Origin: Saprospiraceae bacterium
GTDB lineage: Bacteria > Bacteroidota > Bacteroidia > Chitinophagales > Saprospiraceae
DNA: 64,000 bases
Direction: 5' to 3'
NCBI GenBank assembly: GCA_019638455.1
Contig: JAHBTU010000003.1
Coordinates: 372,001-436,000, forward strand
The notes below the pieces were generated by a model. The model did not search any database, was not told the origin of the DNA, and saw only the letters and a list, made by a program, of their open reading frames with translations. This document shows, in pieces, positions 3,757 to 60,839 of the stretch (position 1 is its first letter; each line of letters starts with the position of its first letter). The position numbers and the translations under genes are program-made.

Positions 3757-3796
3757 ATAGAGCGAGGTTGTAGTTTTGAGCGAATGTTAATTTTAG

Positions 3797-3910
3797 CATA
3801 TCACTAGACATTTTTCACACAACGCCACAACAATGTGAGGTGCAAAGCGGGTAGTGTCAATTCGTTGTGTCGTCGTGGCGTTGTGTGAAATAAAAATGTC
3901 CAGCAGTATG
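3797..3910. mobile_element. 114-bp MITE with 9-bp target duplication, copy 1
   Basis: Terminal inverted repeats CATATCACTAGACATTTTT and (reverse complement of the right end) CATACTGCTGGACATTTTT enclose an internal palindrome built on CACACAACGCCAC. The element is flanked by identical 9-bp direct repeats TAATTTTAG at 3788-3796 and 3911-3919. It encodes nothing. Copy 2 is at 33414 with the same length. The ends match none of the complete ISs in this window, so the mobilising transposase must lie elsewhere. Confidence 0.9.
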
Positions 3911-3993
3911 TAATTTTAGGCACAAAACCTCCTTCCCGGTTTGGTTCTGCGCCCCCCTTTGTCCTCTTCCCCTAAGCCGCAACCGCTCTAAAG

Positions 3994-6503: not shown

Positions 6504-6788
6504 GTTTTTTCTTCCATATTTATTCATTCTTTTTTTAATTGGCACTAACGGTGGCATCTGCGCTGTTTGCGGCTGCGTTGGGCTTGCGGGTTGGGTTTGT
6601 CGCAAATAGGCGTAGATGCGTTGTTCTCCATATTTATATTATCCGAGAGTTTTCAATAGGGATACTATTCATAAACTCCTTGATTTCGTCATCTTGTTTA
6701 TAGTTCAATGAGCCTTCTTGGGAAACGAAAAACAACAACCTTCCGCTTCTCAAAATCCATGAAATCACAAGGAACAACAAAAGTTTTA

Positions 6789-7869
6789 TAGCCCCGTGCA
6801 TTTTTAAAGGAACAAAGGGCGTATCTTTGCTTCATTTTGAGCATGAAAAAACGTTTGAGTTCAGTTTCGTATGAAGGGATGCGCCTGCGAGCGGTAGAGA
6901 TGTTCCGTTCAGGTAAGAACCGCCAAGACATCATGTCCAGTTTGGGGATACCCAAATCAACGTTGTCACGATGGCTTGCGCGATACGATGCAGACAATCC
7001 TGCTTGGTACAAGAGCCTTCCGCCGGGCGGAACCCAGAGCAAATTAGGAACCGAAGACCTGCGGCGCCTGGTGGAAGAATTGAACAAGGGTTGTACAGCG
7101 CAGGGATTTGAAGGGGAAATATGGACGCGGGGTCGCGTTGGTGTTGTGATTGAGCGACTTTTTGGGGTAAAGTATGACCCATCCCATGTGGGGCGGTTGC
7201 TGAAAAAGGTCGGATGGTCGCTGCAACGGCCTTCCAAACAGGCTCGCCAGCGTTCGGAAGAGCGGGTGCAGAAGTGGTATGCAGAGGACATAGGTCGCAT
7301 TAAAAAAAAGTGAAGCGGAAAACCGCGTATTGTTTCATGCCGATGAGTGTGGGGTTTGCTTGCTGCCCTTTTGCGCCAAAACTTGGGCCCCCAAGGGCCA
7401 GACTCCGGTGCTTCAAGAATTCAAAAGCCGCGAGCATCTGAATCTGTTCGGCATGATTTCAACCCGGGGTGATTTGTGCTGGCAAATCCAACGCCTCCCT
7501 TTCAAGGCTGAAGATTTTGAGGAGTTTTTCACTTGGTTGAGCACCGAAGAACTGACGAACACCAAAATGCTGGTCGTATGGGATGGTGCTTCAATTCATA
7601 AGGGTCAGCCGGTAAAAGATTTTTTGCAACACAACCCCGGTATAATACACCTCGAAGCACTACCACCTTATTGCCCACAACTAAATGCCATAGAATTACT
7701 TTGGGATTACCTCAAGTGCCACAAACTCAAAAACCGGATTTTTCTCAATTTGGACGATTTGCAAAATGCCGTAGAATATGCACTTCACGAAATCGCTGAT
7801 GACCCCGAACTCATCCGCTCTTTTTTCACTAAATCATCCGTCTCGTTCCTTTAAATATGCACGGGGCTA
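6789..7869 (+). mobile_element. IS630-family insertion sequence, copy 1
   Basis: A 1081-bp element with inverted repeats TAGCCCCGTGCATTT / ...ATGCACGGGGCTA, flanked by a TA duplication as expected for the IS630/Tc1 group. It differs from copy 2 by only about two bases. It sits in the 3' part of the broken EAD-like gene. Confidence 0.94.
6843..7854 (+). CDS. IS630-family transposase in two frames (A8 slippery run)
   Basis: The first frame (6843-7313, about 156 residues) holds paired helix-turn-helix segments (SLGIPKSTLSRWLARY). The second (open from about 7300 to 7854) holds the DDE catalytic part: LFHADECG, VVWDGASIHKG and LPPYCPQLNAIELLWDYLK, the last with the IS630 glutamate. The switch must occur at eight A residues (7302-7309) and needs a shift of +1 or -2, for example slippage to A7. 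Both copies carry the same A8, so this looks programmed rather than an accident. Confidence 0.88.
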
Positions 7870-8446
7870 TAGGTAAAATGCAAAAGTCAATGCAAAAAAC
7901 ATAAGAGTTGGCTCAATGTCTATCAATGCTCTATCTTTCTCTACCAAATTACAATTGTCGTTTTCCTTTTGGATTAACGCCATTTCTGTGAAATCCCAAA
8001 AGGCATAAAGAGGCTGAATTGCAGCATATGCGTACAAGCAAATTGAAATCACAATTGGAGTATTTACAAATTTGCTATCCAATAGTCGCCCAAACACAGT
8101 TGAAAAAATGGAGCAAGCAATAATTCCCACCACGAGCCTAAACCAAAACTGGGCTTCCAGTGCATCACTTCCGAGCCGGGGAGTAAGATAAAATTGCAAT
8201 GCTGTAACAAGTGAAATAATCAATAAAATTTTTATTAAAAGGGAAAAAATAATTCTTCCAGTTGTTGTTATTGTAAGGGTCAAATACATGAATAAAAACG
8301 TTGCCGTTCCAAGATAATTTATAAAGTCCTTAATCCATTCTTCTTTTAGACCACATAAAATAACTGAGTAAAAAATAGCCCACAATGCCCACATGAAAAA
8401 CCAACCAGTCGAAAACTGCTCTAAAGTATCGTTTACTCCTTTCTTA

Positions 8447-9527
8447 TAGCCCCGTGCATTTTTAAAGGAACAAAGGGCGTATCTTTGCTTCATTTTGAGC
8501 ATGAAAAAACGTTTGAGTTCAGTTTCGTATGAAGGGATGCGCCTGCGAGCGGTAGAGATGTTCCGTTCAGGTAAGAACCGCCAAGACATCATGTCCAGTT
8601 TGGGGATACCCAAATCAACGTTGTCACGATGGCTTGCGCGATACGATGCAGACAATCCTGCTTGGTACAAGAGCCTTCCGCCGGGCGGAACCCAGAGCAA
8701 ATTAGGAACCGAAGACCTGCGGCGCCTGGTGGAAGAGTTGAACAAGGGTTGTACAGCGCAGGGATTTGAAGGGGAAATATGGACGCGGGGTCGCGTTGGT
8801 GTTGTGATTGAGCGACTTTTTGGGGTAAAGTATGACCCATCCCATGTGGGGCGGTTGCTGAAAAAGGTCGGATGGTCGCTGCAACGGCCTTCCAAACAGG
8901 CTCGCCAGCGTTCGGAAGAGCGGGTGCAGAAGTGGTATGCAGAGGACATAGGTCGCATTAAAAAAAAGTGAAGCGGAAAACCGCGTATTGTTTCATGCCG
9001 ATGAGTGTGGGGTTTGCTTGCTGCCCTTTTGCGCCAAAACTTGGGCCCCCAAGGGCCAGACTCCGGTGCTTCAAGAATTCAAAAGCCGCGAGCATCTGAA
9101 TCTGTTCGGCATGATTTCAACCCGGGGTGATTTGTGCTGGCAAATCCAACGCCTCCCTTTCAAGGCTGAAGATTTTGAGGAGTTTTTCACTTGGTTGAGC
9201 ACCGAAGAACTGACGAACACCAAAATGCTGGTCGTATGGGATGGTGCTTCAATTCATAAGGGTCAGCCGGTAAAAGATTTTTTGCAACACAACCCCGGTA
9301 TAATACACCTCGAAGCACTACCACCTTATTGCCCACAACTAAATGCCATAGAATTACTTTGGGATTACCTCAAGTGCCACAAACTCAAAAACCGGATTTT
9401 TCTCAATTTGGACGATTTGCAAACTGCCGTAGAATATGCACTTCACGAAATCGCTGATGACCCCGAACTCATCCGCTCTTTTTTCACTAAATCATCCGTC
9501 TCGTTCCTTTAAATATGCACGGGGCTA
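8447..9527 (+). mobile_element. IS630-family insertion sequence, copy 2
   Basis: A 1081-bp near-identical copy of the element at 6789, in the same orientation, with a TA target duplication (8445-8446 and 9528-9529). Removing it rejoins ...LWASY and KKGVNDT... in frame in the broken EAD-like gene. The two copies bracket 575 bp of that gene and could in principle move it as a composite unit. Confidence 0.94.
8501..9512 (+). CDS. IS630-family transposase in two frames, copy 2
   Basis: Same organisation as the copy at 6843: an HTH frame (8501-8971) and a DDE frame ending at 9512, separated by the same eight-A run. One amino-acid change is visible near the C-terminus (LQTAVEY here, LQNAVEY in copy 1), and one silent change in the first frame. 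Probably functional. Confidence 0.88.
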
Positions 9528-10214
9528 TATAACTTGCCCAAAGTTTGTTTTTCTCGTCTTCGCTCCAATCTTCATAACTTGCTAATTTAGTTAGTCGAAG
9601 ACTGTCTCTTATTTTTTTCTCAATGACGCTATCGGGTTGCAGATTGTTGACCATTTCTTCACCAGTTATTTTATTTTCACTGATTGAAAATCTTCTGAAT
9701 TTAAATAACCAAAAAGAAACGGTAACAATGAAAAGCCAATGAACAATGATTGGCAAATTCCAAGTATAATCACATGATTGGTTTGATAGTAAACTTGAAT
9801 ATTTAAGATAAATAAATAGGCTAAGAGCATACAATACTCCAAAAAAAACGACCAAATATTTTATTTTCTTATTTCCTCGAAACCATTCCCAAAATCCAGG
9901 AGAAGACGCTTCCTTTTGATTAAATGCGTTTATTTCCTTCTCTATAATTTCTTTGAATTTTTCATTATCTTTTGCTTCTTGCTCAACAATCTCTATCAAT
10001 GAGAGAAGGGCAGATGATATTTTATTTCTTTCAATACTTTGAGTTTGATAATCAAGCGTACCAAGACGAATTTCTTTTTGTAATGCTTCGTATCGCCCCG
10101 AATTGTGGACAATTTCAAGTTGACGAGGGTGTCCTTTCAACAAAAATTCAATGCGCCTGAAAATCTGCCGAAGGTCAACACCTTTGGCTATATCATTTTT
10201 TATATCTCCTAAAA

Positions 10215-11277: not shown

Positions 11278-12507
11278 TTTCAGGGGGTACACATTTTAGT
11301 CCAAAGAAAACAGGAGTAGTTCTTTGACAAACGGAAAAGAAAACAGAAGGGGAGTTTTGTGGCTTCTGACACAACAATCCCCCCCTTCCTTATGCGCAAA
11401 AGCGCCTACAAAGATATTGTGGATTTTCTGGCAAAGACCAGTGAAGTTGCACCCCGAGGCAACCACCTGCGCCGCCTTCAGACGATGGCGAGCCTCGTCC
11501 ACGGCTGCATGAAGAGCAAGTCGTGCGCGGTGGAGGGCATGAGCCAGCCCCGGCACGGCGAGGGTACGGGCAACAAGAACAGCCTGCTGCAAGAGGCGAA
11601 GCGCTGGCTTGGGAACAAATGGGTGGACTGGCAGTTGTTCTTCCTGCCGTTGGCGAAACGCTTTTTGGGCATGGCGGCCAAGGGGGGCGAGTTGGTTTTC
11701 GTCATCGATGGCAGCCAAACGGGCACCAAGCACAGCAGCCTGATGCTCTCGGTTTTGTGCGGGGGCTTTGCCCTGCCGCTCGTTTGGCTGGTCAAGGAGG
11801 GGGAAAAGGGGCACTTTCCCGAACAAATGCACTTGGACCTGCTGCACACGCTGCTGCCCATAGTACCCGAGGGTTGCCGCAAGGTACTCTTGGGCGACGG
11901 CGAGTTCGACGGGCAGCAATTGCGCCGATGGTGCGCCGACCAGCACTGGGAGTTTGTCCTGCGCACTTCCTGCGACCGGGTGGTGGACTGTGGCGGCGAA
12001 ACGGCGCGCATGGATGCCCTGTCGCCCGCCAAGGGCGAGCGGGCGGTGTTTGTGCCCGATGCCGTGGACGGCATCAACGCCGTGTGCTGGCACGAAAAAG
12101 GCTTCGACAAACCTATTTTCCTGCTCACCAACATGGATGTGGGAGACATGGCCTGCTCTTACTACCGAAAGCGGTTCAAGATAGAGACCATGTTCAAAAA
12201 CCTCAAATCAAAGGGGTTTCAACTCCACAAGACCCAAATCAAGGATGCCGACAGAATCGCCAAACTGATCTTGATCGTCGCCACGGCGTTTGTCCTGACC
12301 TTTTGCCTGGGCTGTTTCGTCAAACACTATTGCCCCGTCGGCAAACTCAAAACATTCCTCCGAAAGGATAAAATCGAAAAAATGGGGCCTATCCATCTGG
12401 CCCAAAAGTGTTGGGACGAAGCCTTTCACATCGCCTTAGATTTCTTTTCTGATTTGTCAAAGAACTTTGACTGGGTTTTTACTTGAAAAAATGTGTACCC
12501 CCTGAAA
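11278..12507 (+). mobile_element. IS4-type insertion sequence, copy A
   Basis: A 1230-bp element with ends TTTCAGGGGGTACACATTTT / (reverse complement) TTTCAGGGGGTACACATTTT, flanked by the 8-bp direct repeat GCATGTAT (11270-11277 and 12508-12515). Copy B, in the opposite orientation, is at 56920-58149 with its own 8-bp duplication. A diverged third member begins at 63735. Confidence 0.95.
11359..12486 (+). CDS. IS4-family transposase, copy A
   Basis: A 375-residue DDE transposase starting at GTG 11359 (an ATG twelve codons later is also possible). Catalytic motifs are VFVIDGSQTG (first Asp), LLGDGEFDG (second Asp) and YRKRFKIETMFKNLK, which has the YREK spacing of the IS4 family around the catalytic Glu. 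The frame is complete and appears identical to copy B. The 8-bp duplications point to a subgroup with 7-8 bp targets, such as ISPepr1; this is inferred from duplication length only. Confidence 0.92.
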   Translation: MASDTTIPPFLMRKSAYKDIVDFLAKTSEVAPRGNHLRRLQTMASLVHGCMKSKSCAVEGMSQPRHGEGTGNKNSLLQEAKRWLGNKWVDWQLFFLPLAKRFLGMAAKGGELVFVIDGSQTGTKHSSLMLSVLCGGFALPLVWLVKEGEKGHFPEQMHLDLLHTLLPIVPEGCRKVLLGDGEFDGQQLRRWCADQHWEFVLRTSCDRVVDCGGETARMDALSPAKGERAVFVPDAVDGINAVCWHEKGFDKPIFLLTNMDVGDMACSYYRKRFKIETMFKNLKSKGFQLHKTQIKDADRIAKLILIVATAFVLTFCLGCFVKHYCPVGKLKTFLRKDKIEKMGPIHLAQKCWDEAFHIALDFFSDLSKNFDWVFT

Positions 12508-33337: not shown

Positions 33338-33625
33338 AACGTCGAAAGGGTTTCAGCCATTCTCGGTTTGTAGGAGGTGTTATCTTTTGAGGAACGAAAA
33401 AGGTGACATCTCGCATACTACTAGACATTTTTCACACAACGCCACAACGATGTGAAGTGCAAAGCGGGTAGAGTCAGTTCGTTGTGTCGTCGTGGTGTTG
33501 TGTGAAATAAAAATGTCCAGCAATATGGACATCTCGGCCTGTTTTTGACACGTCATCCCTCCATTCTTCCGGGACGACACCTCAGAACCCGACAATACGA
33601 GAATTGCTGAAACCCTTTCGACGTT
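33338..33625. repeat. Palindromic repeat after yidC, carrying a nested MITE
   Basis: An outer 19-bp perfect inverted repeat (AACGTCGAAAGGGTTTCAG at 33338; its complement at 33607-33625) brackets a copy of the ATTCTCG palindrome family (33355-33608; other copies at 41423, 48935 and 54958). Inside that copy sits the 114-bp MITE at 33414. The stretch 33318-33629 has no gene. It may also serve as the yidC terminator. Confidence 0.7.
33414..33527. mobile_element. 114-bp MITE with 9-bp target duplication, copy 2
   Basis: Same length and structure as the element at 3797. Ends CATACTACTAGACATTTTT and, in reverse complement, CATATTGCTGGACATTTTT. Flanked by the exact 9-bp repeat GACATCTCG (33405-33413 and 33528-33536); removing it and one duplication restores the host palindrome. 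Confidence 0.92.
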
Positions 33626-54957: not shown

Positions 54958-55029
54958 AGCTATTCTCGCTTTGTCGGGTTCTGAGGTGTCGCCCCTCCAT
55001 GCTTCCGGGATGACACCTATTACAAAACC
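54958..55029. repeat. ATTCTCG palindrome family, half copy
   Basis: AGCTATTCTCGCTTTGTCGG through GGGATGACACCTATTACAAA matches half of the palindrome at 48935. It lies just after the TIR gene and next to repeat copy 8. Confidence 0.6.
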
Positions 55030-55032
55030 TTT

Positions 55033-55212
55033 TATACCCAGATTAAAGAAGATTTGAACCTGCCCATTGGCAAGGCAGGGATGCCCCTGATTGATTTGCA
55101 TGATTTCCAAAGGATTGCGAGCGCCGTTCGTTCAAAACCACCTTGTCAGAACCTGTACTCAGGGGTTTGCCCGGCCAAGTGAAGCGGACGGGGCTGATTT
55201 GCGTTGACTATA
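55033..55212 (+). repeat. 180-bp TATA-ended dispersed repeat, copy 8
   Basis: Full-length copy with GAA for GAG, CCCATTGGC and GCGAGCGCC variants. The next 220 bases up to the MFS gene hold no recognisable gene. Confidence 0.9.
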
Positions 55213-55432
55213 CCAATTGCGAATGGCTGCCGACTTTCCGGTCACCTTTTTGCTGAGGTGATTCGAGGATATATGGTTCAGAGCATTTAGTACGGCACAA
55301 CATCGCCCGGCGAGACTTGATTTTGTTTCATCGATTATCGCTGTCCTATCAGGGAGAACTGCTATTGGGAGCGTCTTTTGCTCAATTCTCCCCGCATTGC
55401 CTCATCGCTCTCAACGAGCTGCATCAATATCG

Positions 55433-56722
55433 ATGACTCAATATCGCTGGAGTATTGTCGCCCTGTTGTTTTTTGCAACGACCATCAATTATCTTGACCG
55501 TCAGGTCATCAGTCTGCTCAAAGAAGATTATTTGGACAAGCAGTTTGGCTGGACGGAGCAGGACTACGCTAACATAGTGATTGCCTTCCAAATAGCATAC
55601 GCTATTGGCTTGCTCTTGGCAGGCGGCATCATTGACCGCGTTGGCACAAAGATTGGCTATGCGGCTTCCATTGTTTTGTGGAGCATTGCGGCCATTTTGC
55701 ATGGTTTTGTGGGTAATACGGCGGGTTTTATTGCCGTACGCGGGTTTCTCGGCGTGAGTGAGGCTGGCAACTTCCCGGCAGCCATCAAAACAGTAGCCGA
55801 ATGGTTCCCCAAAAAAGAACGCGCACTTGCGACGGGCATTTTCAATACCGGGAGCAATATCGGAGCTGTGTTCGCACCACTAATGGTGCCAGTCATTGCA
55901 GTCATGTTTTCGTGGGAAATGGCGTTTATATTGACTGGCGCAGTAGGTTTTGTTTGGTTGTTCTTTTGGTGGGCGATGTACAGAAAACCTGAAACGCACC
56001 CGAAAGTGAACGCCGCGGAACTGGCACATATCAACAGCGATGAGGCCGAGGTAGCTAATGCCCAGTCGGATGAAAAGCCGTTCAGGTGGTTCAGACTGCT
56101 GCGATTCCGGCAAACATGGGCGTTTGTCATTGGCAAATTGCTCACCGACCCGATTTGGTGGTTTTATCTGTTCTGGCTACCATCTTTCCTCAAAAACGAG
56201 TATGGGCTTACCAAGACTCAACTGTCGCTTCCGTTGGCGACGGTATATTTGCTTGCAGCGATAGGGAGCGTAATGGGCGGCTGGCTGTCAGGCTACTTCA
56301 TTGAGAGAAAAGGGATAGCGCCTTTTTATGCTCGGCGACGCACTTTGCTTATTTTTGCTTTTTTTGCGCTGCCTGTGCTATTTTCTCAGGCACTTGGCTC
56401 ACTAAATATGTGGTTAGCCATTTTCATCATCGGCATAGCGACGGCTGGGCACCAAGGCTTTAGCGCCAATATCTTCACTACTGTTTCGGATATGTTTCCC
56501 AAAAAGGCTGTCGCTTCTGTCACGGGTATCGGCGGTATGGCAGGTGCTATTGGCGGTATATTGATTGCGAGTTTGGCAGGGCTGTTGTTTGACCACTACA
56601 AGGCGCTCGGCAGTATCCAGACTGGCTACTACATCATGTTTGTTGTTTGTAGCCTGGCTTATTTGATGGCATGGCTCATCATGCGGGCACTCACGCCGAG
56701 ATTTGAACGAATAGAAATTTAG
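55433..56722 (+). CDS. MFS transporter, anion:cation symporter type (ExuT/DgoT-like)
   Basis: A 429-residue inner-membrane carrier with about twelve helices. The N-terminus MTQYRWSIVALLFFATTINY followed by LDRQVISLL is the signature of the ACS family of hexuronate/galactonate carriers. GFLGVSEAGNFPAAIKTVAEW and FPKKERALATGIFNTGSNIG are conserved loop segments. It opens a cluster with a KDPG-type aldolase, a GntP permease and a sugar-acid dehydratase, so a sugar acid is the likely substrate. ATG 55433 matches the family start. Confidence 0.9.
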   Translation: MTQYRWSIVALLFFATTINYLDRQVISLLKEDYLDKQFGWTEQDYANIVIAFQIAYAIGLLLAGGIIDRVGTKIGYAASIVLWSIAAILHGFVGNTAGFIAVRGFLGVSEAGNFPAAIKTVAEWFPKKERALATGIFNTGSNIGAVFAPLMVPVIAVMFSWEMAFILTGAVGFVWLFFWWAMYRKPETHPKVNAAELAHINSDEAEVANAQSDEKPFRWFRLLRFRQTWAFVIGKLLTDPIWWFYLFWLPSFLKNEYGLTKTQLSLPLATVYLLAAIGSVMGGWLSGYFIERKGIAPFYARRRTLLIFAFFALPVLFSQALGSLNMWLAIFIIGIATAGHQGFSANIFTTVSDMFPKKAVASVTGIGGMAGAIGGILIASLAGLLFDHYKALGSIQTGYYIMFVVCSLAYLMAWLIMRALTPRFERIEI

Positions 56723-56919
56723 AGACCTGTGCCAATGGTTCGTGAAGAATTTGAATTGCATGGTCAATTGATATTCGTAAATCACTTGTTTTTTGCAGGT
56801 TCCCCAACTGCGCAAAAAATATCATCGTTCGCTCCAACTACGTCACGAGTGCTTTCGAGATGTTGAAATTCAAAAAATTAAGTCATTTTTGCACACTACC
56901 GGACATTTTTATCTCACAC

Positions 56920-58149
56920 TTTCAGGGGGTACACATTTTTTCAAGTAAAAACCCAGTCAAAGTTCTTTGACAAATCAGAAAAGAAATCTAAGGCGATGTG
57001 AAAGGCTTCGTCCCAACACTTTTGGGCCAGATGGATAGGCCCCATTTTTTCGATTTTATCCTTTCGGAGGAATGTTTTGAGTTTGCCGACGGGGCAATAG
57101 TGTTTGACGAAACAGCCCAGGCAAAAGGTCAGGACAAACGCCGTGGCGACGATCAAGATCAGTTTGGCGATTCTGTCGGCATCCTTGATTTGGGTCTTGT
57201 GGAGTTGAAACCCCTTTGATTTGAGGTTTTTGAACATGGTCTCTATCTTGAACCGCTTTCGGTAGTAAGAGCAGGCCATGTCTCCCACATCCATGTTGGT
57301 GAGCAGGAAAATAGGTTTGTCGAAGCCTTTTTCGTGCCAGCACACGGCGTTGATGCCGTCCACGGCATCGGGCACAAACACCGCCCGCTCGCCCTTGGCG
57401 GGCGACAGGGCATCCATGCGCGCCGTTTCGCCGCCACAGTCCACCACCCGGTCGCAGGAAGTGCGCAGGACAAACTCCCAGTGCTGGTCGGCGCACCATC
57501 GGCGCAATTGCTGCCCGTCGAACTCGCCGTCGCCCAAGAGTACCTTGCGGCAACCCTCGGGTACTATGGGCAGCAGCGTGTGCAGCAGGTCCAAGTGCAT
57601 TTGTTCGGGAAAGTGCCCCTTTTCCCCCTCCTTGACCAGCCAAACGAGCGGCAGGGCAAAGCCCCCGCACAAAACCGAGAGCATCAGGCTGCTGTGCTTG
57701 GTGCCCGTTTGGCTGCCATCGATGACGAAAACCAACTCGCCCCCCTTGGCCGCCATGCCCAAAAAGCGTTTCGCCAACGGCAGGAAGAACAACTGCCAGT
57801 CCACCCATTTGTTCCCAAGCCAGCGCTTCGCCTCTTGCAGCAGGCTGTTCTTGTTGCCCGTACCCTCGCCGTGCCGGGGCTGGCTCATGCCCTCCACCGC
57901 GCACGACTTGCTCTTCATGCAGCCGTGGACGAGGCTCGCCATCGTCTGAAGGCGGCGCAGGTGGTTGCCTCGGGGTGCAACTTCACTGGTCTTTGCCAGA
58001 AAATCCACAATATCTTTGTAGGCGCTTTTGCGCATAAGGAAGGGGGGGATTGTTGTGTCAGAAGCCACAAAACTCCCCTTCTGTTTTCTTTTCCGTTTGT
58101 CAAAGAACTACTCCTGTTTTCTTTGGACTAAAATGTGTACCCCCTGAAA
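56920..58149 (-). mobile_element. IS4-type insertion sequence, copy B
   Basis: A 1230-bp copy of the element at 11278, inverted, with an exact 8-bp target duplication TCTCACAC (56912-56919 and 58150-58157) inside the MITE. Confidence 0.95.
56941..58068 (-). CDS. IS4-family transposase, copy B
   Basis: A 375-residue DDE transposase that appears identical to the product at 11359 (motifs VFVIDGSQTG, LLGDGEFDG, YREK-type YRKRFKIETMFKNLK). Identity of the copies indicates recent movement. Confidence 0.92.
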   Translation of the reverse strand: MASDTTIPPFLMRKSAYKDIVDFLAKTSEVAPRGNHLRRLQTMASLVHGCMKSKSCAVEGMSQPRHGEGTGNKNSLLQEAKRWLGNKWVDWQLFFLPLAKRFLGMAAKGGELVFVIDGSQTGTKHSSLMLSVLCGGFALPLVWLVKEGEKGHFPEQMHLDLLHTLLPIVPEGCRKVLLGDGEFDGQQLRRWCADQHWEFVLRTSCDRVVDCGGETARMDALSPAKGERAVFVPDAVDGINAVCWHEKGFDKPIFLLTNMDVGDMACSYYRKRFKIETMFKNLKSKGFQLHKTQIKDADRIAKLILIVATAFVLTFCLGCFVKHYCPVGKLKTFLRKDKIEKMGPIHLAQKCWDEAFHIALDFFSDLSKNFDWVFT

Positions 58150-58180
58150 TCTCACACAACGCCACGACGACACAACGAAT

Positions 58181-58360
58181 TATAGTCAACGCAAATCAGC
58201 CCCGTCCGCTTCACTTGGCCGGGCAAACCCCTGAGTACAGGTTCTGACAAGGTGGTTTTGAACGAACGGCGCTCGCAATCCTTTGGAAATCATGCAAATC
58301 AATCAAGGAAATCCCTGCCTTGCCAATGGGCAGATTCAAATCCTCTTTAATCTGGGTATA
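58181..58360 (-). repeat. 180-bp TATA-ended dispersed repeat, copy 9
   Basis: Reverse-oriented full copy inside MITE copy 3. Comparison with MITE copies 1 and 2 shows the insertion between CGAATT and ACACTACCC. This fits a TA target duplicated on insertion and defines the element boundaries empirically. Confidence 0.92.
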
Positions 58361-58488
58361 ACACTACCCGCTTTGCACTTCACATCGTTGTGGCGTTGTG
58401 TGAAAAATATCCAGTTGTAGGGTCATTTTGTCACTATTCAAATTCTTCACGAACCATTGAGGATGTTACTTAAAATACGAGACATAAA

Positions 58489-59148
58489 ATGGACCGTTTA
58501 GCCACTTATCAAACAATAGCAGGGTCCGGCCTTGTGCCATTGTTTTATCACCCCGCTCCCCAAATGGCATTTGAGGTTGCGGTTGCTTGTCATCGGGGCG
58601 GGGCGAAGGTGCTGGAGTTTACCAACCGAGGGCATTTCGCCCACGAGGTGTTTGCTGAACTGCGCAAACGCACGATGCGCGAACTACCCGGCTTGCTGCT
58701 TGGCGTCGGCTCTGTTCAAGATGCAGGCTCGGCAGCCTTGTATCTCCAAATGGGAGCCGATTTTGTTATCACGCCACTGCTGCGCGAGGATGTGATTTTG
58801 ACCTGCAACCGTCGTAAAGTCGCCATCATACCCGGGGTTTCGACCAGTTCGGAGATTGGCCGTGCGGAGGAACTTGGCTGCGAGCTGGTAAAAATTGCGC
58901 CCGGAGAAGTGCTGGGGCCACAGTTCCTCAAAGCTCACCGCGCTCCATGTCCTTGGACGCGAGCCATGATTTCTGGGGGCGTTTCGCCCGACGAGGCTAA
59001 CCTGCGCGAGTGGTTCGAGGCCGGGGCGGCTTGCGTGGGCATAGGCAGCAAATTGATTTCCAGTGAGATTTTGGAGAAAAAGGATTGGCTGAGGCTGGAA
59101 GAAAAAGTACAGGAAGTGTGTCGCTTCATTCAGACCATCCGTGCCTGA
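58489..59148 (+). CDS. KDPG/KHG-type aldolase
   Basis: A 219-residue class I aldolase resembling 2-dehydro-3-deoxy-phosphogluconate / 4-hydroxy-2-oxoglutarate aldolase. Active-site segments are KVLEFTNRGHFA (Glu), GADFVITPLL, and ELVKIAPGEVLGPQFLKA with the Schiff-base Lys. It splits a keto-deoxy sugar acid to pyruvate plus an aldehyde. The GntP permease gene begins four bases downstream, so they are co-translated. Together with the ACS-type carrier and the dehydratase it fits a sugar-acid degradation route. Confidence 0.9.
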   Translation: MDRLATYQTIAGSGLVPLFYHPAPQMAFEVAVACHRGGAKVLEFTNRGHFAHEVFAELRKRTMRELPGLLLGVGSVQDAGSAALYLQMGADFVITPLLREDVILTCNRRKVAIIPGVSTSSEIGRAEELGCELVKIAPGEVLGPQFLKAHRAPCPWTRAMISGGVSPDEANLREWFEAGAACVGIGSKLISSEILEKKDWLRLEEKVQEVCRFIQTIRA

Positions 59149-59151
59149 GCC

Positions 59152-60474
59152 ATGTTTTACACAGCCTTTCTACTTGTAGCGGCCATCGCCTCCATTATTT
59201 TGCTCTCCGCACGATTCAGATTCAACGTGTTTTTCGCGCTGCTCTTCGTTGCTGCCGCGACGGGGGTTGCAGCGGGACTGGATGCTGAAAATGTCGTTGG
59301 GGCACTCAAAACGGGTATTGGGAGCACCGTCGAAAAAATCGGGTTGCTCATTATTTTGGGCATCACACTCGGTGTTTTGCTCGAAAAAAGCGGTGCTATG
59401 GACAGCCTTGCCTGCGCCGTGCTGCGCCGCACGGGGCAGCGCAAAGCGCCGCTCGCGCTGAGCATTGTGGGCTACTTGGTGGGGCTTCCTATTTTTTGCG
59501 ATTCGGGTTTTGTGGTATTGTCGGGCTTGTTGCGCTCGCTCTCGGAGCGTTCGCCGGGGCAGCGCTTGTGGATGGTAATCGCGCTTTCCTCTTCCTTGTA
59601 TGCGGTGCATTGTTTGGTGCCACCTCACCCCGGTATCACTGCGGCGGCGGGCATTTTACGGGCCGACTTGGGGCTGGTCATGTTGCTAGGTGGGCTGGTC
59701 GCTCTGCCTGTCGCAGCGGCAGGCTATTTTTTGGGGAAATGGCTGAGCCGTTGGCCTACCGTGTCGTTTGAAGATATAGCCGTTGCTCCCCCCCCTCACG
59801 CCGCTCGCCTTCGCCCGGTGTTGGCTATGCCGCCTATTTTGGTTCCGATAATGCTCATTGGTCTCAAATCAATGCTAAGCCTTAGCCCCGATTATGGCGA
59901 AGCCATTGTTTGGTGGCCACTGCTTCAAATGGTGGGCGACCCAGTAGTAGCTCTTTTCATAGGCATTTTGTTCTGCATACCGCTACTGCGAAAAATGCCC
60001 CGTGCGGATTGGGCACCTTTGCTTGATACCGCGCTTGCCAAATCGGGCAACATCCTGCTCCTCACGGCAGCTGGCGGGGCTTTTGGTGAGGTCATCAAAG
60101 CCTTAAATATCGGCGAAGTGTTTGGCCAGGCCTTGGCGACCAGCGGGTTGGGGCTGCTCGTGCCGTTTTTGCTTGCGGCAGTGCTAAAAACCGCACAGGG
60201 CAGTTCTACCATTGCGGTTATTTCTGCGGCGGGCATCCTTGCGCCGTTCTTGCCCGCGTTGGGTTGTGAGAGCGATGCGGCTCGCTCGCTGGTATTGCTG
60301 GCTATGGGGGCTGGCTCGATGGTTGTGTCCCACACCAATGACTCGTATTTTTGGGTTGTATCCAAATTTGGCGAGCTAGACGAAATGCGGGCGCTCAAAA
60401 CGTACACCCTGACGACAGCGGTAATGGGGGCAACGGGCTTGCTAGGTGTTTGGGTTTTATGGCTGTTCGTCTGA
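59152..60474 (+). CDS. GntP-family gluconate/sugar-acid permease
   Basis: A 440-residue inner-membrane permease with about twelve helices and the GntP/GntT layout: EKIGLLIILGITLGVLLEKS, VGLPIFCDSGFVVL, LVPPHPGITAAAGIL and LLTAAGGAFGEVIKA. These H+ symporters take up gluconate or related aldonates. Stop-to-start spacing with the aldolase gene is four bases. Having two different carriers (this one and the MFS protein) in one cluster suggests two related substrates or an import/export pair. Confidence 0.93.
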   Translation: MFYTAFLLVAAIASIILLSARFRFNVFFALLFVAAATGVAAGLDAENVVGALKTGIGSTVEKIGLLIILGITLGVLLEKSGAMDSLACAVLRRTGQRKAPLALSIVGYLVGLPIFCDSGFVVLSGLLRSLSERSPGQRLWMVIALSSSLYAVHCLVPPHPGITAAAGILRADLGLVMLLGGLVALPVAAAGYFLGKWLSRWPTVSFEDIAVAPPPHAARLRPVLAMPPILVPIMLIGLKSMLSLSPDYGEAIVWWPLLQMVGDPVVALFIGILFCIPLLRKMPRADWAPLLDTALAKSGNILLLTAAGGAFGEVIKALNIGEVFGQALATSGLGLLVPFLLAAVLKTAQGSSTIAVISAAGILAPFLPALGCESDAARSLVLLAMGAGSMVVSHTNDSYFWVVSKFGELDEMRALKTYTLTTAVMGATGLLGVWVLWLFV

Positions 60475-60606
60475 TACGGGCGAGCATCGTGCGAACGGCG
60501 TGGGAAACGACGCGCATTTCAAACCTATAAAAAACTGGGAAAAAGTATGCTGTCGTCTCGTTTTTAGACTGGAAGTTGGTTGCAACCGGAATGGATAGGG
60601 CCGCCC

Positions 60607-60737
60607 CGCGCTACTGGACATTATTTTCGTGCTGCAAAGGCACAAAGACACAAAGGCACAAAATGCGGCCAATCAATGCGTATTTTGCTTTGCGCCTTTG
60701 TGACTTCGTGGCAAATTTGAAAATGTCCAATAGTGTG
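60607..60737. mobile_element. 131-bp MITE with 9-bp target duplication
   Basis: Ends CGCGCTACTGGACATT and (reverse complement of right) CACACTATTGGACATT enclose an internal palindrome (CACAAAGACACAAAGGCAC / CTTTGTGACTTCGTGGC). Flanked by GGGCCGCCC (60598-60606) and GGGCCGCAC (60738-60746), an 8-of-9 match. The terminal bases resemble those of the 114-bp MITE, so both may use the same transposase. The rest of 60475-60839 holds no gene. Confidence 0.82.
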
Positions 60738-60839
60738 GGGCCGCACCTCTCATGTTGAGGCGATATCTGCTCGGACAGCGCGCAGCAATCGCTACATATT
60801 TGGAGGCGATAAGGCATAAATGATTCGAGGCGCGGAGGC

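Follow-up and report, generated by a model that had tools for sequence, protein, structure and literature searches.

The window (64,000 nucleotides; C3:372001-436000 of a 5.77-Mb genome, labelled G000) carries, between the genes of an ExuT-like transporter and of a KDPG/KHG aldolase, a nest of four elements on three levels: M24, MITE-A within M24, and an insertion sequence (IS) and a repeat, REP180, as siblings within MITE-A. The named-genome scan gave aldolase relatives of up to 72% identity, the best of them from Saprospiraceae and Flavobacteriaceae (closest, 72%, a Saprospiraceae bacterium); on this basis the genome is taken as Bacteroidota, probably Saprospiraceae. G303, a sister species of the same genus (aldolase 96% identical; flanking DNA 95–96% identical), was used for comparison. 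The features of the interval are as follows.

55397–56722: MFS transporter gene (ExuT-like), on one side of the nest
56733–58459, unstranded: M24 element, level 1, split; a 24-bp terminal inverted repeat (TIR) at each end
56733–56756, plus strand: left TIR of M24, CAATGGTTCGTGAAGAATTTGAAT
56882–56891, unstranded: target duplication of MITE-A, left copy, GTCATTTTTG, with one additional T
56892–58421, plus strand: MITE-A, level 2, split by the IS and REP180; ca. 114 bp without guests
56912–56919, unstranded: target duplication of the IS, left copy, TCTCACAC
56920–58149, minus strand: IS4-like IS, level 3; 1230 bp, 20-bp perfect TIRs
56941–58068, minus strand: transposase ORF, 375 aa; Pfam DDE_Tnp_1 above cut-off
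58150–58157, unstranded: target duplication of the IS, right copy, TCTCACAC
58181–58360, plus strand: REP180 copy, level 3, TATAGTC...GGGTATA; 180 bp, counted with TA at each end
58422–58430, unstranded: target duplication of MITE-A, right copy, GTCATTTTG
58436–58459, minus strand: right TIR of M24, inverted
58489–59148: KDPG/KHG aldolase gene, on the other side of the nest

The original prediction had placed a MITE inside a 24-bp inverted repeat and had it cut by an IS with a target duplication and, separately, by a copy of a 180-bp repeat; all of this was recovered: the 24-bp repeat is perfect, the exact 8-bp duplication TCTCACAC stands on both sides of the IS, and REP180 lies inside MITE-A, starting 23 bp past the right TCTCACAC. 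Four levels had been counted; since the IS and REP180 both cut MITE-A and neither lies within the other, there are three, with two guests at the third.

The enclosing repeat had been noted without being recognised as an element. Its 24-bp end gave 23 matches in the 5.77-Mb genome (up to 3 mismatches; reversed-pattern control, 0), mostly as inverted pairs at a spacing of ca. 200–500 bp, and 5-bp duplications were found outside three copies (GTTAT, TGACT and AAAAA; none clear at the remaining copies). Recurrence as inverted pairs, together with 5-bp direct repeats outside, identifies it as the TIR of a short element, M24. The nest copy measures ca. 188 bp once the guests are subtracted; copies without REP180 have 210–330 bp, 24-bp TIRs and no transposase. 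M24 thus showed every MITE character tested: small size, lack of a transposase, TIRs, a target duplication and several copies.

The split pieces of MITE-A match both intact copies in the window (3783–3921 and 33400–33538). Among the copies collected 13 are nearly full, and the ends of MITE-A and MITE-B gave 187 matches (up to 2 mismatches); both families are short and multi-copy, with TIRs and a target duplication, as tested for MITEs. The duplication around the nest copy is decayed, GTCATTTTTG on the left against GTCATTTTG on the right, in accordance with what had been predicted. The ends pair mostly at ca. 100 bp, and no long end pair recognisable as a full-length MITE-A or MITE-B parent was seen among the matches listed. 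A MITE-B copy is located at 60606–60739 of the window, downstream of a GntP-like gene, and the orthologous G303 site is empty. At C5:114570, 114667 and 114764 of G000 three MITE ends of the same direction follow one another at a 97-bp spacing, as if in tandem units.

The best NCBIfam match of the IS transposase was the IS4 family (E 8.8e-36; 123.7 bits, under the 152-bit cut-off); an exact 8-bp duplication was found at 9 of the 12 genomic copies, and the TIRs and duplication agree with the IS4 family. Identity of the nest IS with copy A (11278–12507), predicted at the protein level, extends to all 1230 bases; ten of the twelve copies are identical and the remaining two differ by 0.24%. The nest IS is recent, as had been proposed. 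Elsewhere (L115; C4:446910-448139) the same IS lies in the 3' end of a different REP180 copy, which shows only that the IS insertion there is later than that REP180 copy.

REP180 is very abundant: 245 genome matches to its 3' end (up to 3 mismatches) correspond to at least 245 copies. Two size classes were observed, full (ca. 180 bp) and shorter (ca. 115 bp, both ends kept), and TA stands at both ends in 112 of ca. 126 copies. For full copies with both flanks within 1.4 Mb of G303, 17 of 19 orthologous sites are empty, one is occupied and one is complex. The empty sites (n = 17) read TA (11), TG (3), AA (1), CTA (1) and an irregular CA-like junction (1), so 15 of them have exactly 2 bp; one empty site was also found within the genome (L036 vs. 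L050, GTCCAG-TA-GTGTGAG). The empirical boundary of the repeat, which the nest had been expected to supply, is confirmed by the G303 empty sites. A TA duplication at these sites is indistinguishable from a TA carried by REP180 itself. The five non-TA sites (TG, AA, CA) are somewhat above expectation (p = 0.02 against an assumed later-change rate of 10% per site), so that a simple TA duplication is likely for REP180, short of proven. TG also stands at the corresponding position of the other MITE-A copies aligned, and these cases, like the three TG empty sites, fit a pure TA duplication less well.

Mean divergence of REP180 from its consensus was 3.3% (111 copies), much of it variation common to several copies; substitutions limited to one or two copies averaged 0.69%. 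G303 has REP180 copies of its own (46 matches, best 93%), fewer and more decayed than those of G000, and so the bulk of the spread looks specific to the G000 species; the five other same-genus genomes of the family sample gave no REP180 match. In a census of small size REP180 was found within MITE-A, MITE-B and M24; the reverse case, an M24 or MITE within REP180, did not turn up in the same small sample, searched from the REP180 side.

The comparison of assemblies over the exuT-like/aldolase interval, proposed in the original prediction as the way to intermediate states, was run on G303, which has M24 only. Window positions 55455–56889 and 58422–60605 align to adjoining stretches of G303 that overlap by 8 bp at the target of MITE-A; the orthologous site contains M24 with both terminal repeats and a single MITE-A target, GTCATCTTG, and MITE-A, the IS and REP180 are all absent from it. 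The 9-bp MITE-A duplication faces a single G303 copy at window 33416 (GACATCTCG) as well as in the nest (GTCATTTTG). The oldest layer is M24, shared with the sister species; MITE-A, the IS and REP180 came after the species split, or else three losses without a scar would be required. Transposons are known to be capable of precise excision, and an older origin of the inner elements with precise loss from G303 can be formulated on that basis; it is nevertheless highly improbable, since one site would have to lose three unrelated elements scarlessly, nothing in the data set calls for such excision, and the same empty state recurs at 17 of 19 REP180 sites in a genome where REP180 is fewer and more decayed. 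Insertion of the three after the split is retained. With multi-copy families on one side and empty sites in the sister genome on the other, the features of the nest are far beyond chance.

MITE-A occurs within M24 at two further loci, L031 (C1:453020-453330) and L047 (C4:293970-294279), at the same M24 position and in the same 9-bp target. Their outside flanks differ from those of the nest, they are bounded by 5-bp duplications of their own (GTTAT and TGACT), and the IS and REP180 are absent from both; no such composite was found in G303. Two loci with different flanks mean that M24 and MITE-A have travelled jointly on at least one occasion. Movement of the nest as one unit, the outcome named beforehand as speaking against stepwise insertion, therefore holds for M24 with MITE-A; the full nest was present at no other locus examined. 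Arrival of the complete nest as a single unit, for which the existence of these two composites might be quoted, is scarcely credible, given that all four parts come together nowhere else among those loci, that L031 and L047 are without the IS and REP180, and that the G303 ortholog is M24 alone.

The M24 of the nest differs from that of L047 at 4 of 187 sites, from L031 at 7 of 187 and from the G303 ortholog at 15 of 187, with most of the nest-to-G303 differences on the G303 side, and all three composites share the MITE-A variants ACCGG and ATCTCAC against the consensus. These observations would agree with MITE-A having been brought into a resident empty M24 by homologous recombination (gene conversion) from a composite elsewhere, which is possible though doubtful: the same closeness is expected if the nest locus seeded the other composites, and no conversion breakpoint was identified. 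Insertion of MITE-A in place is tentatively preferred.

The proposed order of events is the following. M24, a short non-autonomous element, was inserted before the split from G303, where it is still found. After the split MITE-A, absent from this site in G303, was probably inserted in place into M24 with a 9-bp duplication. The composite of M24 and MITE-A, present at two further loci, would then have been copied there as one piece from the nest locus. Finally, at the nest locus only, the IS entered with its 8-bp duplication, and REP180 likewise at this locus only, at a 2-bp target, probably TA. Divergence gives no order of these two, as the nest REP180 copy has zero private substitutions in 180 bp; judged from its sequence, this copy could be just as recent as the IS. 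The prediction that the 180-bp repeat moved after the MITE had settled is thus borne out in the sequence of events (MITE first; the inner three missing from G303), and only the word settled is too strong for an element that also stands with M24 at L031 and L047. The relative clock it had seen in the nest runs from MITE-A to its two guests; between REP180 and the IS the three-level nest sets no order. That the interval was built by stacked independent transposon insertions, in the full order given, is considered very probable on comparison with one sister genome.

For M24 and MITE-A the transposases were probably supplied in trans by full-length relatives, which were not found. REP180 differs from both in the MITE character of TIRs: its two ends have nothing in common beyond TATA (p = 0.96 against shuffled ends). 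As a structured RNA it was rejected: no Rfam match near a family cut-off was obtained in the nest, and folding was no better than that of shuffled sequence on either strand. A full-length parent was likewise rejected: each of the two long inverted pairs of 3' ends that were read (C2:826611 and C2:1069758) consists of two ordinary copies with ordinary genes between them; the search over 0.86 Mb of G000 and over 1.4 Mb of G303 also listed more widely spaced pairs, and the rejection refers to the two pairs read. Further arrangements of the repeat were recorded: near-perfect hairpins of ca. 73 bp, each formed by a pair of REP180 3' ends in inverted orientation (L230:10530-10602, L234:7153-7224, L241:6798-6872); a second nest at window 54958–55233, where a larger insertion, flanked on both sides by CTTTCC and absent from G303, contains REP180; and, at L071:746-961 (C4, ca. 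574070-574290), a REP180 cut at position 171 and joined directly to half a MITE-A, the junction being near the MITE-A position that holds REP180 in the nest but in opposite orientation.

REP180 was most likely moved by an IS630/Tc1-mariner-type reaction with TA as its target. A resident IS630 with a TA target has 25 nearly identical copies; those at window 6787–7871 and 8445–9529 encode the transposase in two separate reading frames. Derivation of REP180 from this IS630 was rejected, as the ends align no better than shuffled ones (p 0.38–0.74) and have only TATA in common. Two RAYT (Y1 transposase) genes are also present in the genome. A REP180 that is a TA-bounded, non-MITE mobile repeat without TIRs, moved by an unrecognised system to at least 245 copies, mostly after the split from the ca. 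95%-identical sister, is regarded as rather unlikely.

Internally deleted variants occur in Correia/NEMIS of Neisseria, ERIC of enterobacteria and CIR of Caulobacter/Brucella. These families have ca. 100–200 bp, many copies and 5'-TA-3' termini (PMC2229807), and REP180 is like them in size range, high copy number, TA termini and internally deleted variants. The TIR is 24 bp in Correia and 7 bp in ERIC, whereas REP180 has none beyond TATA; in this respect it is nearest to CIR, listed as TA-ended without a TIR (PMC2229807). RUP of Streptococcus pneumoniae targets TA, and IS630-Spn1, with which it shares terminal repeats, is its presumed mobiliser (PMC2229807); the ends of REP180, in contrast, are not significantly similar to those of the resident IS630, so RUP/IS630-Spn1 serves as an analogy and not as a case demonstrated here. 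BrickBuilt of Porphyromonas gingivalis is a MITE that contains a minisatellite (PMC4596501); the likeness is that of a MITE in a Bacteroidota genome, the minisatellite being a feature of BrickBuilt.

Small repeat families inserted into each other are known from BOX, RUP and SPRITE of S. pneumoniae (PMC3049150), and several small repeat families of one genome are nested here in the same manner; the nest is therefore a good example and no new kind, and every part is a familiar kind of element, though the members are new. Nested insertions are used to date element activity in the TinT (transposition-in-transposition) approach, built for retroposons and thousands of nests (PMC3014933); here, unlike in TinT, there are few nests, of DNA elements, and an orthologous empty site fixes the order independently. 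The locus thus serves as a clean worked case in which stacked insertions, read against the empty site of a sister genome, put the activity of bacterial mobile elements in order. For REP180, a very abundant repeat, the exact ends are fixed and the spread is indicated as recent, by which its mover becomes a testable question.
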